DNA of 33,462 bases. It comes from Bacillota bacterium. GTDB taxonomy: Bacteria; Bacillota; Sulfobacillia; Symbiobacteriales; ZC4RG38. Position numbers and translations under genes: made by a program. Under the pieces are notes generated by a model, which worked only from the letters and a program-made list of their open reading frames with translations, was not told where the DNA came from and did no database searches. The stretch lies in assembly GCA_021890795.1 (NCBI GenBank), contig JAKKUO010000022.1, positions 1 to 33,462 of the forward strand, read 5' to 3'. Positions 1,088 through 11,561 of the stretch are shown here, one piece after another. Numbering within the stretch: position 1 is the stretch's first letter; every line of letters begins with the position of its first letter.

Positions 1088-1117
1088 GAAGTACACTGGT
1101 CAGAGGACACAAGTCAA
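1088..1117 (-). promoter_or_regulatory. Possible promoter of the AIPR gene
   Basis: On the minus strand TTGACT (1117-1112) is followed after 18 bases by TACTTC (1093-1088), about 50 bases upstream of the ATG. The -35 matches well and the -10 is moderate. It sits at the junction between AT-rich and GC-rich DNA. This is a pattern match only. Confidence 0.35.
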
Positions 1118-1127
1118 GGCCGTTCAG

Positions 1128-1416
1128 TGGCTCGGCGTCAGACGTGGTCGCGGCTTGGTGGTCCAGGCTTTCCGGGACAGCGGGCAGCGATGCCAGATCG
1201 GCATCACCCTCAACTGGACCCACTTCGCTCTGGCCACCGGTGCCCCGGGGGACCGGGCTACGGCGATGCTCTTCGACGGGTCTGTGAACTGCCGGTTCCT
1301 CAATCCCGTCTTCCAGGCCGTCTACCCGGTGGAAATGATGGAACTATATTGGGACGTGCTGCCGGCGGACCTGATCCGGCCCGGCGAACTGGCAATCATC
1401 ACCACCCCGGTGGATG
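1128..1416 (+). pseudogene. Remnant of a GH1 family beta-glucosidase gene
   Basis: An open stretch reads VVQAFRDSGQRCQIGITLNW, then DGSVNCRFLNPVFQAVYPVEM and LIRPGELAIITTPVD. These follow, in order and spacing, the middle of glycoside hydrolase family 1 proteins (AVQAFR...GKIGI.LN..., DG..NRWFLDPVF.G.YP.DM, DL..I..PIDF). The N-terminal third with the acid/base glutamate and the C-terminal third with the nucleophile are absent. The left edge coincides with the switch to the AT-rich AIPR patch, so an insertion probably broke the gene. The homology fades after the PVD residues. The fragment cannot encode a working enzyme. Confidence 0.6.
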
Positions 1417-1447
1417 TCCCCCCGGCATCGACCTGCGTGCATATGAC

Positions 1448-1462
1448 TGCAGCGATGCTGCA
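1448..1462. promoter_or_regulatory. Inverted repeat, candidate activator site upstream of the sigma-54 promoter
   Basis: TGCAGC-GAT-GCTGCA is a perfect 6-3-6 inverted repeat. Its centre lies about 95 bases upstream of the sigma-54 -24 element, where enhancer-binding activators usually bind. No activator gene is in the window. The assignment rests on position and symmetry alone. Confidence 0.35.
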
Positions 1463-1546
1463 ACCGGTGGCAGGACCCGGGGCGGGGCGCGGGGTTCCCT
1501 GCCGCCCCCGGCGCGCCCCCGGGGGCTCATCGGGCCCTCACCATCC

Positions 1547-1563
1547 CTGGCACGGGAATTGCT
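1547..1563 (+). promoter_or_regulatory. Sigma-54 (SigL/RpoN) promoter of the leucine dehydrogenase-ptb unit
   Basis: CTGGCACGGGAATTGCT matches every defined position of the sigma-54 consensus YTGGCACGrNNNTTGCW. The -24 GG (1549-1550) and -12 GC (1561-1562) are separated by exactly 10 bases. Transcription would start near 1574, about 40 bases before the GTG start of the first dehydrogenase. In Bacillus subtilis the bkd operon (ptb, leucine dehydrogenase and branched-chain keto acid dehydrogenase genes) is also read from a SigL promoter with the activator BkdR, so the gene content downstream supports the call. Confidence 0.8.
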
Positions 1564-1612: not shown

Positions 1613-2686
1613 GTGGACATCTTCGAAAGGATGGCGGCGTACGGCCACGAGCAGGTCATCTTCTGCCACGACCGGGTCACGGGGCTGAGGGCCATTGTCG
1701 CCATCCACGACACCACCCTGGGGCCGGCCCTGGGCGGGACCCGGATGATGGCTTACGGAAGCGAGGAGGAGGCCCTGGAGGATGCCCTCCGGCTCTCCCG
1801 GGGGATGACCTACAAGGCCGCGGCCGCGGGGCTGGACCACGGCGGCGGCAAGGCGGTGATCTGGGGCGATCCCCGCACTGACAAGAGCGAGGAGCGCTTC
1901 CGGGCCTTCGGCCGGATGGTCCAGACCCTGGGGGGCCGGTTCATCACCGGCACGGACCTTGGCACCGCCAAGGAAGACTTTGTCTGGTCCCGGGCGGAAA
2001 CCCCCTACCTGGTGGCCCTGCCGGAGGAGCACGGCGGCAGCGGCGACTCAGGGGTGGTGACCGCCTTCGGCGTGTTTCAGGGGATGCTGGCCGCTGCGGC
2101 AGAGGTCTGGGGCGAACCGAGCCTCCGGGGCCGGCACGTCGCAGTCCAGGGGCTGGGCAAGGTGGGCGCCCGGCTGGTGGACCACCTGGTGGAAGCCGGG
2201 GCCCCGGTGACGGTGACGGACATCGCCCCGGAGAGCCTGGCCCGGGTCCGGGAACGCCACCCCGGGGTGGAGGCAGTGCCGCCGGAGGCGATCTACGACG
2301 TGCCGGCGGACATCTTCTCCCCCAACGCCCTGGGGGGCGTCCTGAACGATGAGACCATCCCCCGGCTCCGGTGCCGGATCGTGGCCGGGGCAGCCAACAA
2401 CCAGCTGGCTGCACCCCGTCACGGCCGGATGCTGATGGAGCGGGGCATCCTCTACGCCCCGGACTTTGTCATCAACTCCGGGGGACTCATCCAGGTCGCG
2501 GACGAACTCCTGGGGTATAATCGTGAACGGGCGCTGCGGAAGGCCGCGGCCATCTACGACCGGCTGCGGGCGATCTTCGCGATCAGCCGCCGGGAGGGGA
2601 TTCCGACCCAGGAGGCCGCCGAACGGCTGGCGGAAGAGCGGATCCGCCGGATCGCCGCCCTCCGCCGGATCTACACCCCGGGCTGA
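1613..2686 (+). CDS. Leucine dehydrogenase family protein (copy 1)
   Basis: 357 residues, the usual length of the Glu/Leu/Phe/Val dehydrogenase family. It should carry out NAD-dependent oxidative deamination of branched-chain amino acids to 2-oxo acids. The GTG at 1613 was chosen by alignment with the paralogue at 3775; the open frame extends far upstream, through the promoter and the GH1 remnant. K68 (GMTYK), K80 (GGGK) and D115 fall at the positions of the substrate-binding and catalytic residues of leucine dehydrogenase. A dinucleotide-binding GLGKVG lies at about 180-185, followed by GAANNQL. The segment around D115 reads TGTDLGT rather than the usual TAEDVGT, so substrate preference may differ from copy 2. 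It is the first gene after the sigma-54 promoter. A phenylalanine- or valine-preferring enzyme cannot be excluded. Confidence 0.88.
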   Translation: MDIFERMAAYGHEQVIFCHDRVTGLRAIVAIHDTTLGPALGGTRMMAYGSEEEALEDALRLSRGMTYKAAAAGLDHGGGKAVIWGDPRTDKSEERFRAFGRMVQTLGGRFITGTDLGTAKEDFVWSRAETPYLVALPEEHGGSGDSGVVTAFGVFQGMLAAAAEVWGEPSLRGRHVAVQGLGKVGARLVDHLVEAGAPVTVTDIAPESLARVRERHPGVEAVPPEAIYDVPADIFSPNALGGVLNDETIPRLRCRIVAGAANNQLAAPRHGRMLMERGILYAPDFVINSGGLIQVADELLGYNRERALRKAAAIYDRLRAIFAISRREGIPTQEAAERLAEERIRRIAALRRIYTPG

Positions 2687-2838: not shown

Positions 2839-3729
2839 ATGAAGAGTTTTGCAGAGATTCTGGCAGCAGCCCGGGCCCGGGGGCCCAAGCGGGTGGCGGT
2901 GGCCGCGGCGGCGGACCAGGCGGTGCTGGAGGCCATCGCCCTGGCCGACCGGGAAGGGCTCTGCCAGGCGGTGCTGTTCGGTGACAGCGAGGAGATCCGC
3001 CGGTTGGCCCCGACGGTGGGGCTCGACCTGAGCCGGCATGAGGTGGTGCACGTCACCGACAAGGCTGAGGCCGCGGCCCAGGCGGTGGCCCGGGTCCGGG
3101 CCGGGGGCGCGGAGGTCCTGATGAAGGGGATGCTGGACACCGCCACCCTGCTCCGGGCGGTGCTGAACCGGGAGACTGGCCTGCGCACCGGGCGGCGGCT
3201 CACCCACTGCTTCGTCCTCGAGGTGCCGGGGCTGGACCGGCTGCTGCTGATCAGCGACGCCGCCTTCAACGTGGCCCCGGACCTCGCGGGCAAGGCGGCC
3301 ATCCTCAGCAACGCGGTCTCCCTGGCCCACGCCCTGGGCATCGAGGAGCCGAAGGTGGCGGTCCTGGCGGCGGTGGAGGTGGTCAATCCCGACATGCCCG
3401 CGACCACCGATGCCGCGGCCCTGAAGGAGATGGGCGCCCGGGGCGAGTTCGGCCGGTGCCTGGTGGACGGGCCTCTGGCCATGGACCTGGCGGTCTCCCC
3501 GGAGGCGGCCCGGCACAAGGGGGTCGGGGGGCCGGTGGCCGGCCACGCGGACATCCTGATTGTGCCCGACATTGAGGCCGGCAACATCCTGTATAAGGGG
3601 CTGGTTTACCTCGCCGGCGCCAAGGTGGGCGGGGTAGTCCTGGGCGCGGCGGCCCCGGTGGTGCTGGTCTCCCGGGCGGACAGCCCGGAGAGCAAGCTCA
3701 ACGCCATCGCCCTGAGCCTCCTCGTGTAG
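2839..3729 (+). CDS. ptb: Phosphate butyryltransferase (phosphate acyltransferase family)
   Basis: 296 residues from ATG 2839, preceded by GAGGGGAAG; upstream in-frame codons lack a site. The protein aligns throughout with the phosphate acetyl/butyryltransferase family, which converts butyryl- or branched-chain acyl-CoA plus phosphate to acyl phosphate and CoA. Visible blocks include VLMKGMLDTATLLRAVLN, the LTHCFVLE segment, the ISDAAFNVAPDL segment and, near the end, VPDIEAGNILYKGL. It sits between two leucine dehydrogenase paralogues, as ptb sits beside leucine dehydrogenase in the Bacillus bkd operon. This points to branched-chain amino acid catabolism rather than butyrate fermentation. 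No butyrate kinase gene is present in the window, so the acyl phosphate must be handled by a kinase encoded elsewhere. Confidence 0.87.
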   Translation: MKSFAEILAAARARGPKRVAVAAAADQAVLEAIALADREGLCQAVLFGDSEEIRRLAPTVGLDLSRHEVVHVTDKAEAAAQAVARVRAGGAEVLMKGMLDTATLLRAVLNRETGLRTGRRLTHCFVLEVPGLDRLLLISDAAFNVAPDLAGKAAILSNAVSLAHALGIEEPKVAVLAAVEVVNPDMPATTDAAALKEMGARGEFGRCLVDGPLAMDLAVSPEAARHKGVGGPVAGHADILIVPDIEAGNILYKGLVYLAGAKVGGVVLGAAAPVVLVSRADSPESKLNAIALSLLV

Positions 3730-3774: not shown

Positions 3775-4842
3775 GTGGGTGTCTTTGAGCTCATGGGGAA
3801 ACACGGTCACGAGCAGGTGGTCTTCTGCTACGACCGGGACAGCGGCCTCAAGGCGATCATTGCTATCCACGACACTACCCTGGGCCCGGCCCTGGGGGGC
3901 GTCCGGTTCTGGCCCTACGAAAAGGAAGAGGACGCGCTCAACGATGTCCTGCGGCTCTCCCGGGGGATGACCTATAAGAACGCCGCGATGGGACTGAACC
4001 TGGGTGGCGGCAAGGCGGTCATCCTCGGCGACCCGGCCCGGGACAAGAGCGAGCACCTCTTCCGGGCCTTCGGCAAGTTTGTCCAGAGCCTGGGCGGCCG
4101 CTACATCACCGCTGAGGACGTGGGCACCACCGTCCAGGACATGAACTACGTCCTGGCTGAGACCACCTACGTGGCCGGTCGGGCAGACCTCTCCGGCGAT
4201 CCCTCCCCGGTAACCGCCTTCGGCGTCTACCGGGGGATGAAGGCGGCGGCCCGGTGGATCTGGGGGGAGGAGAGCCTCCGGGGGAAGACCGTGGCGGTGC
4301 AGGGGCTGGGGAAGGTCGGCTACCATCTCTGCCAGCACCTCCACGGGGAGGGGGCCCGGCTGGTGGTGACAGACATCCACCCGGCCGCGGTGGAGCGGGT
4401 GGTCCGGGAGTTCGGCGCCACCCCGGTGGAGCCGGAGGCGATCTACGATGTCGACTGCGACATCTACGCCCCCTGCGCCCTGGGCGGCACCCTCAACGAC
4501 CAGACCATCCCCCGGCTGAAGTGCAAGATCGTGGCGGGAGCGGCCAACAACCAGCTCCAGGAGCCCCGGCACGCCCGGATGCTGATGGAACGGGGGATCC
4601 TCTACGCCCCGGACTTCATCATCAACGGCGGCGGCGTGATCAATGTGGCCGAGGAGTTCCACCCCTCGGGCTACAACCGGGACCGGGCTTACGCCAAGGT
4701 GGCGACCATCTACGACAAGCTGCTCACGGTCTTCCGGATCGCCCAGGAGCGGGGGATCACCACCGCCGAGGCGGCGGAGATCCTGGCGGAGGAGCGGATC
4801 GCCAGGGCCCTGGCCCTTCGGCGGATCTACACCCCCCGGTGA
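3775..4842 (+). CDS. Leucine dehydrogenase (copy 2)
   Basis: 355 residues from GTG 3775, with AGGAGGG just upstream. It has all features of canonical leucine dehydrogenase: K68, K80 and D115 in the standard [10 protein letters not shown] context, GLGKVG near 180, GAANNQL, and [12 protein letters not shown] near the C-terminus. It is clearly a paralogue of the gene at 1613: the order of motifs, the ends (RIYTP) and the length are the same, but many residues differ, so the duplication is not recent. It lies 45 bases after ptb and is followed by a terminator, closing the unit. Of the two copies this one is the better match to characterised leucine dehydrogenases. Confidence 0.9.
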
Positions 4843-10574: not shown

Positions 10575-11561
10575 TTATTCTCCGGCGGCTTCCTGGGCGC
10601 CGCCCACCTCTTCCCAGATGGAGGTCCGGGCGGTCTCCCGGAGGTAGATCGAGCCGATGACAAAGGTGAGCGCCGCCACCCCGATGGGGTAATAGAGGCC
10701 GGCGTAGGCGTGGCCGGTTTCCGCGGCGATCCAGGTGGCCACGAAGGGCACCAACCCATCGAAGACCCCGTTGCCGATGTGGTACGGCAGGGAGAGGGAG
10801 GTGTACCGGATCCGGGCCGGGAAGAACTCTACCAGGAAGGCGGCGACGGGGCCGTAGACCATGGTGACGTAGAGGACCTGGATGAAGACCAGGAGGGTGA
10901 GCATCACCGGGTTCTCCCGGTTGGCGGACATGAGGGAGTAGAGGGGGATGTAGGTCACCGCGCCCAGGAGGTTGCCGGCCATCATGATCCACTTGCGGCC
11001 GATTCGGTCGGAAAGGGCGCCAAAGACCACGAAGAACGGAGTGGCCAGGGCCAGGGCCGCGGCCATGACGATGGTGACGGTGAGGAAGGGGACCTCCAGG
11101 GTGTTGAGGAGAAAGCTCTGAGCGTAGAACTGGCCGGTGTACCAGACCACCCCCTGGCCGGCGGTGGCCCCGAAGAGCGCAAGCAGCATCAGCCGCAGGT
11201 TGCGCGGGTCCCCCAGGCTTTCCCGGATCGGGGCCTGGGAGGCCTTCCCCTTCTCCTTGAGCCGGGTGAAGAGGGGCGACTCCCGGAGGCTCATCCGGAT
11301 CCAGAGGGAGACGCCAACCAGGACGATGGAGAGGAGGAACGGGATCCGCCAGCCCCAGGCCCGGAAGGCCTCTTCACCGACGGCAAGGCGCACCGCCAGG
11401 ATGACCAGGAGAGAGAGGAAAAAGCCGCCGGTGGCGGTGATCTGGATGAAGCTGGTGTAGAACCCCCGGCGGTTGTCCGGCACGTGCTCGGCCACGTAGA
11501 TCGCCGCACCCCCGTACTCGCCCCCCAGGGCGAGCCCCTGCAGGAGCCGCCCGGGGTTCAT
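10575..11561 (-). pseudogene. MFS transporter of the metabolite:H+ symporter (ProP/ShiA-like) family, N-terminus missing
   Basis: 328 residues remain, starting MNPGRLLQGLALGGEYGG. In full proteins of this family the RLLQGLALGGE(Y/W)GGA motif lies about 120 residues in, at membrane segment 4, so the first three segments and the signature loop are gone. The rest is intact: the SLRESPLF loop, the central cytoplasmic loop, FGALSDRIGRKW after segment 7-8, and PVAAFLVEFFPARIRYTSLSLPYHIGNGVFDG. The break lies just left of the xerD upstream region (about 11561). The ATG at 11561 has no ribosome site. GC content is like the host. Proteins of this family take up osmolytes, dicarboxylates or shikimate; this one's substrate cannot be told. 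It is probably a decayed gene, although a shortened product cannot be excluded. Confidence 0.75.

Follow-up and report, generated by a model that had tools for sequence, protein, structure and literature searches.

The ldhA-ptb-ldhB operon

The window analyzed here is the whole stretch of 33,462 nucleotides that makes up contig C66 of a Symbiobacteriales genome (G000, 2.79 Mb). Downstream of a -24/-12 element near its left end lie three genes in the order ldhA-ptb-ldhB, with one ptb between two ldh paralogs (Table 1).

Table 1. Features of the promoter region and operon in the window
Feature	Position	Strand	Basis or remark
GH1 beta-glucosidase remnant	1111..1480	+	PF00232, E 9e-6, profile positions 201-289 only; contains the candidate upstream activator site; context for the promoter rather than part of it
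Candidate BkdR upstream activator site, TGCA-N6-TGCA-N7-TGCA	1438..1462	+	TGCA at 1438, 1448, 1459
-24/-12 sigma-54 promoter element CTGGCACGGGAATTGCT	1547..1563	+	Consensus match
Predicted transcription start	1574	+	~12 bases past the GC of -12, from sigma-54 promoter geometry
ldhA, Glu/Leu/Phe/Val dehydrogenase, first gene	1613..2686	+	PF02812 and PF00208; outside the LeuDH/Bcd clade
ptb, phosphate butyryltransferase	2839..3729	+	NF004472, 405 bits (cut-off 399); PF01515
ldhB, leucine dehydrogenase (Bcd) ortholog	3775..4842	+	PF02812 and PF00208; LeuDH clade

The first-pass annotation had described these genes as a duplicated leucine dehydrogenase-ptb unit, a description that the molecular evolutionary record does not bear out. 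In our tree of 44 proteins, ldhB groups with the LeuDH proteins of Bacilli bkd operons with robust support (100/100), in a clade that spans both the class and the Bacilli, and the ldhA proteins of the whole class fall outside this clade. Given this topology, ldhA and ldhB are the products of an ancient duplication, a recent duplication of an ldh-ptb unit is ruled out, and the operon is better described as a single ptb flanked by two ancient paralogs.

Butyrate kinase (buk) is absent from the genome, in which the only acetokinase-family protein is AckA. We considered AckA as a candidate butyrate kinase and rejected it, as it scores 510 bits against TIGR00016 and 80 to 93 bits against the butyrate-kinase models, far below their cut-off. 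The presence of Ptb in an organism without a butyrate kinase raises a specific metabolic question about the role of this enzyme.

A sigma-54 promoter element upstream of ldhA

We judged the element against the sigma-54 promoter consensus TGGCAC-N5-TTGC with GG-N10-GC spacing. All 14 of the defined positions of YTGGCACGRNNNTTGCW are matched, exactly 10 bases separate the GG (1549-1550) from the GC (1561-1562), and a search of the entire window returned this element as its sole zero-mismatch TGGCACN5TTGC. The GTG start of ldhA follows after 49 bases, so that the exact consensus and the position some 50 bases before the first gene, as originally described, are both confirmed.

Such a motif could be a chance match in GC-rich DNA, with the operon transcribed from an ordinary promoter. 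From base composition alone, a simulation of 12 Mb predicts about 4 to 5 copies of the 10-base core per 2.79-Mb genome, and at that frequency the core by itself would not convince. The expectation of a core match within a single 300-bp upstream window on one strand, however, is ~0.00025, and the full sigma-54 consensus occurred 0 times in 12 Mb of simulated sequence. No sigma-70-like site was found between positions 1000 and 5200 of the window. At the matching place in the sister species stands CTGGCACCGAACTTGCT, which differs from the element of the window by three changes, all of them confined to the spacer.

The genome as a whole suggests that this promoter type is in use. TGGCAN6TTGCW has 8 matches in the genome versus 2 for a reversed-pattern control, and three of the other matches (on C11, C57, and C95) lie directly after sigma-54 activator genes, on the same strand. 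Four other good -24/-12 elements can be listed by position: C57:15067, C95:18182, and C11:10190, each after an activator gene and before, respectively, an AMP-binding acyl-CoA ligase (by family search), a tryptophanase-like gene, and an ABC transporter ATPase-like gene, and C36:33895, which precedes an aminotransferase-like gene.

RpoN and an ortholog of BkdR

The first-pass annotation had named an rpoN gene, a BkdR-like activator, and conservation of the motif in relatives as the points on which its reading could be checked. The rpoN gene is present on C4 and encodes a protein of 447 aa (TIGR02395, 442 bits, above the cut-off) with all three Pfam domains, AID, CBD, and DBD. The genome encodes five full sigma-54 activators, P0004 on C43 and those on C11, C57, C95, and C103. 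The gene for P0004 (L022, C43:9102-11201) adjoins spo0A, and its product carries a Rossmann-like N-terminus, two PAS domains (PF00989), a sigma-54 AAA+ domain (PF00158) with the GAFTGA loop, and a Fis-type HTH (PF02954).

P0004 shares 68 to 73% full-length identity with activators that adjoin the ldh operon or spo0A in order-level relatives; in four of these, the protein (68 to 70% identical) is encoded directly between spo0A and ldhA. It is 35 to 55% identical to the Bacilli activators that lie downstream of spo0A and directly before complete bkd operons, a bkd-linked set drawn from Planococcus, Exiguobacterium, Heyndrickxia, Aquibacillus, and others that leaves out B. subtilis itself. In the activator tree, 26 proteins, including P0004 and the Bacilli proteins in the BkdR position, form one clade with support of 99/99, and the four other sigma-54 activators of the genome fall outside it. 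From identity, clade, and position together, we conclude that P0004 is the BkdR ortholog of this genome, with the PAS, sigma-54 AAA+, and Fis-type HTH domains of the BkdR family and common descent with the BkdR of Bacilli.

Residues 6 to 96 of P0004 form a GFO/IDH/MocA-type NAD-binding Rossmann stretch (PF01408) that can be aligned in several Bacilli BkdR proteins and is possibly a redox or nucleotide sensor. Elsewhere in the genome, a gene start at C100:3848-5194 resembles those of GAF-type acetoin activators and adjoins a 2-oxoacid dehydrogenase operon.

Co-occurrence of the element and the activator

For each relative, we took the highest-scoring -24/-12 match in the 300 bp that precede the ldh/buk/ptb cluster, with at least 12 of 14 positions counted as positive. 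The element is present in 10 of the 12 genomes that have a BkdR ortholog versus 1 of 27 loci without one (Fisher p = 1e-6), and when the comparison is limited to rpoN-positive genomes, at 1 of 16 loci without the ortholog (p = 5e-5); since the compared genomes share ancestry, the 12 and the 27 are not independent and these p values are indicative only. The motif is thus kept in relatives, and its presence follows that of the BkdR ortholog.

The exceptions are few. In G005, a match of 11/14 lies at nearly the same distance as the element of its congener G003. In G002, of the same family as the genome studied here, BkdR is present, ldhA has been lost, and no element stands before ptb-ldhB; because this genome keeps the activator together with its bkd promoter, the main exception is accounted for. 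The single activator-less locus with a positive score (12/14) is in G008. Given this co-occurrence and the conservation in the sister species, we reject the chance match, which we regard as exceedingly improbable. In all likelihood, the element at 1547-1563 is a genuine sigma-54 promoter for leucine-breakdown genes, with a relative of BkdR as its activator.

A phased TGCA array as the candidate BkdR site

Upstream of the promoter, TGCA recurs in a phased array. The pattern was picked from these upstream regions, and the only independent prediction is therefore the second site per genome (below), a limit that applies to the following counts: TGCA occurs 49 times (14 expected) upstream of activator-bearing loci versus 9 times (18 expected) at loci without the activator, and 19 promoters together contain 25 copies of TGCA-N6-TGCA versus a mean of 0.15 in shuffles (at most 2 in 300). 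The dominant spacings are 10, 14, and 24. In the sister species, 12 of the 12 TGCA bases are kept and 7 of the 13 spacer bases are changed (p = 0.005); the spacings of 10 and 11 are unchanged, and the distance from array to promoter has shifted by ~100 bp. Similar TGCA arrays are present in the bkdR-ptb interval of most of the Bacilli examined, and none of the genome's other four well-placed sigma-54 promoters has the phased array.

These patterns bear on whether the promoter is real but driven by another sigma-54 activator, that of C11, C57, C95, or C103. Four such proteins do exist in the genome. The activator genes on C11, C57, and C95, however, are each closely followed by a -24/-12 element, as is the case for self-linked activators, and the promoters concerned are without the phased array; among the relatives, it is only the P0004 ortholog that adjoins the ldh operon and tracks the motif. 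We therefore consider control by one of these four proteins highly unlikely and retain the BkdR ortholog as the activator. Judged by sequence, the promoter would have both elements by which sigma-54 control is recognized, a cognate activator (the BkdR ortholog) and an upstream site (the TGCA array).

It is likely, in our estimation, that the phased array, with its spacings of 10, 14, and 24 bp, is the BkdR site across the Bacillota, from Exiguobacterium and Planococcus to the Symbiobacteriales, and that it keeps both halves of the bkd system under one activator even where that activator is unlinked. B. subtilis BkdR acts via an upstream activating sequence (PMC6461809), and no sequence definition of a BkdR upstream site was found in the accessible literature. 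Phased TGCA provides a concrete, searchable candidate for this site, one that could allow the BkdR regulon to be predicted in any Bacillota genome and that a single binding experiment would test.

A second target operon

A genome-wide search with the pattern TGCA-N6-TGCA-N6..11-TGCA returned exactly two loci in the 2.79 Mb, the promoter of the window and C51:7973-7997. The array on C51 is followed by a -24/-12 element, ACGGCACGGAACTTGCTTGGGTTCCC, close to CTGGCACGGGAATTGCTGGGGTTCCC of the window and with CGG at -24 where the consensus has TGG. Downstream lie genes for lpd, E1 alpha, E1 beta, and E2 (lpd-bkdAA-bkdAB-bkdB). Because this E1 alpha is 57 to 62% identical to the BkdAA proteins of Bacilli, versus 35 to 45% for the two other E1 alphas of the genome, we assign the operon on C51 to a branched-chain 2-oxoacid dehydrogenase.

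The pairing recurs in relatives. The same search of G003 gave hits at the ldhA promoter and at that of lpd-bkd and nowhere else. In G004 and G006, too, lpd-bkd is preceded by the array with a -24/-12 element and paired with the ldhA promoter, and the two-operon pairing is likewise present in G001 and G005. In G002, the array and element before lpd-bkd are present and weaker. On the evidence of these paired sites, the Bacillus bkd regulon is here predicted to be two operons under one activator.

A probable origin of the arrangement

In Bacilli, bkdR is followed by a single operon, ptb-ldh-buk-lpd-bkdAA-bkdAB-bkdB; in Symbiobacteriales, the lpd-bkd part is separate, with its own array and promoter. 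The family to which the window belongs has a further peculiarity, in that secretion-ATPase (T2SSE/CpaF-like) and pilus-type genes come after the activator, where ldhA otherwise stands. A single AIPR/AbiU gene is divided between the ends of the window and of C43, its two halves matching profile positions 1-76 and 83-269. This low-GC, abortive-infection-like gene has its N-terminal half at 51-1040 of the window (minus strand) and its C-terminal half at C43:3-785 (L191). The split gene suggests an insertion element in a defense gene and joins both contigs; no direct overlap was found between the contig ends, and we infer the join from the two halves. C43 and the window are thus probably neighbors, with the ldh operon after bkdR in the ancestral order and ~20 kb away. 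We had also considered that the ldh operon moved far from bkdR, an idea that we dropped in favor of insertion given the AIPR/AbiU halves at both contig ends.

If BkdR control was lost upon this ~20-kb insertion, the promoter would be a relic. The activator is no longer adjacent to the operon, buk is gone, and G002 is without ldhA and its promoter, all of which would fit such decay. Against it stand the constraint within the genus, where the TGCA bases are unchanged and the spacer is not and where the -24/-12 element is intact, and the intact activator gene. Activators unlinked to their targets are moreover known, as 38 of 263 in a reconstruction of the Clostridiales (PMC6615313). A relic is accordingly a most improbable reading, and we hold to a functional promoter.

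Several observations concern the surrounding sequence. The sister species has a different GH1 fragment at the place of the remnant in Table 1 (L138, 2623-3018), decayed differently. Farther into the window, an MFS transporter gene at 10575-11561 (minus strand) is without its N-terminal part, and the sequence past 11561 has a foreign look, which may reflect an insertion or a junction in the assembly.

A model for control of the two operons

We are confident in the following overall reading, whose steps of binding, induction, and transcription are drawn from sequence: the element at 1547-1563 would be a functional -24/-12 promoter of ldhA-ptb-ldhB, switched on by the BkdR ortholog via the phased TGCA array, with the second operon on C51 under the same activator. 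RNA polymerase with RpoN would sit on 1547-1563 as a closed complex, and P0004 would bind the array ~85 to 110 bp upstream. Array-bound P0004 would then loop over, and ATP hydrolysis would drive formation of the open complex. The inducer would be branched-chain amino acids or their keto acids, presumably perceived via the N-terminal domains of P0004. The same activator would drive lpd-bkdAA-bkdAB-bkdB through the TGCA array and -24/-12 element of that operon, such that deamination by LeuDH and oxidative decarboxylation by BKDH would be co-induced.

The first-pass annotation had proposed that sigma-54 control of branched-chain amino acid catabolism persists in a distant, GC-rich Bacillota lineage, and this proposal is supported by rpoN, the BkdR ortholog, the conserved motif, and the array and element of the bkd operon on C51. 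Its accompanying view, that the downstream genes are those of the SigL-type bkd operon in rebuilt form, stands for the bkd enzymes and for BkdR/sigma-54 and needs refinement for the rebuilding: the operon has divided in two, without being freely rebuilt, and buk has been lost. Control by sigma-54 and BkdR would thus have been kept in a deep, GC-rich lineage of the Bacillota despite the splitting of the operon, the loss of a gene, and the separation of the activator.

Comparison with known systems

The kind of system is already known; what is new is that the regulon is split, that the activator stands apart from its operon, and that buk is missing, as well as the phased TGCA site. Experiments in B. 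thuringiensis have shown that BkdR and sigma-54 activate the bkd promoter there, TTGGCACGGTATTTGCT at -44 (PMC4428206). A broad survey places COG0334 dehydrogenases of the Bacillota, phosphotransacetylase, and the butyrate kinase of Clostridia under sigma-54 control (PMC12316311).

With the bkd system of B. subtilis and B. thuringiensis (bkdR; ptb-bcd-buk-lpd-bkdAA-bkdAB-bkdB; SigL and BkdR), the system described here shares the sigma-54 promoter, an orthologous activator beside spo0A, the enzymes, the lpd-bkdAA-bkdAB-bkdB order found on C51, and, for most of the Bacilli examined, phased TGCA in the interval from bkdR to the first gene. It differs in having two operons, an extra ldh paralog in first position, and no buk in the genome, and in the placement of the activator, which is probably ~20 kb from the ldh operon and on a different contig than lpd-bkd. 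A single transcription unit of the Bacillus type after bkdR is therefore not what we find, the genes lying on two contigs; judging from its genes and sites, the system is one that would act like a bkd regulon, and it differs from the Bacillus bkd operon.

A close likeness is to the Symbiobacterium-type locus, spo0A-bkdR-ldhA-buk-ptb-ldhB, of G003, G004, G005, and G006, which shares the promoter, the array, the activator, the gene set, and the second target, lpd-bkdAA-bkdAB-bkdB, with its array, and which differs in having buk and in an activator immediately upstream of the operon. The predicted sigma-54 regulons of Clostridiales (PMC6615313) are alike in their multiple activator sites upstream of -24/-12 elements and in the unlinked state of some activators, and unlike in that 15 of their activator groups share TGT/ACA inverted repeats with 10- to 12-bp spacers; neither ptb nor leucine dehydrogenase is mentioned in the main text of that study.

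Three Planococcus loci (L082, L087, and L110) and one of Indiicoccus (L068) have a perfect four-fold TGCA-N6 array ~100 to 210 bp upstream of ptb, and no -24/-12 element is recognizable before ptb at these four loci. Several of the Planococcus and Indiicoccus ptb upstream regions contain the cre-like sequence AAGCGCTT. In these Caryophanaceae, BkdR may work without sigma-54.
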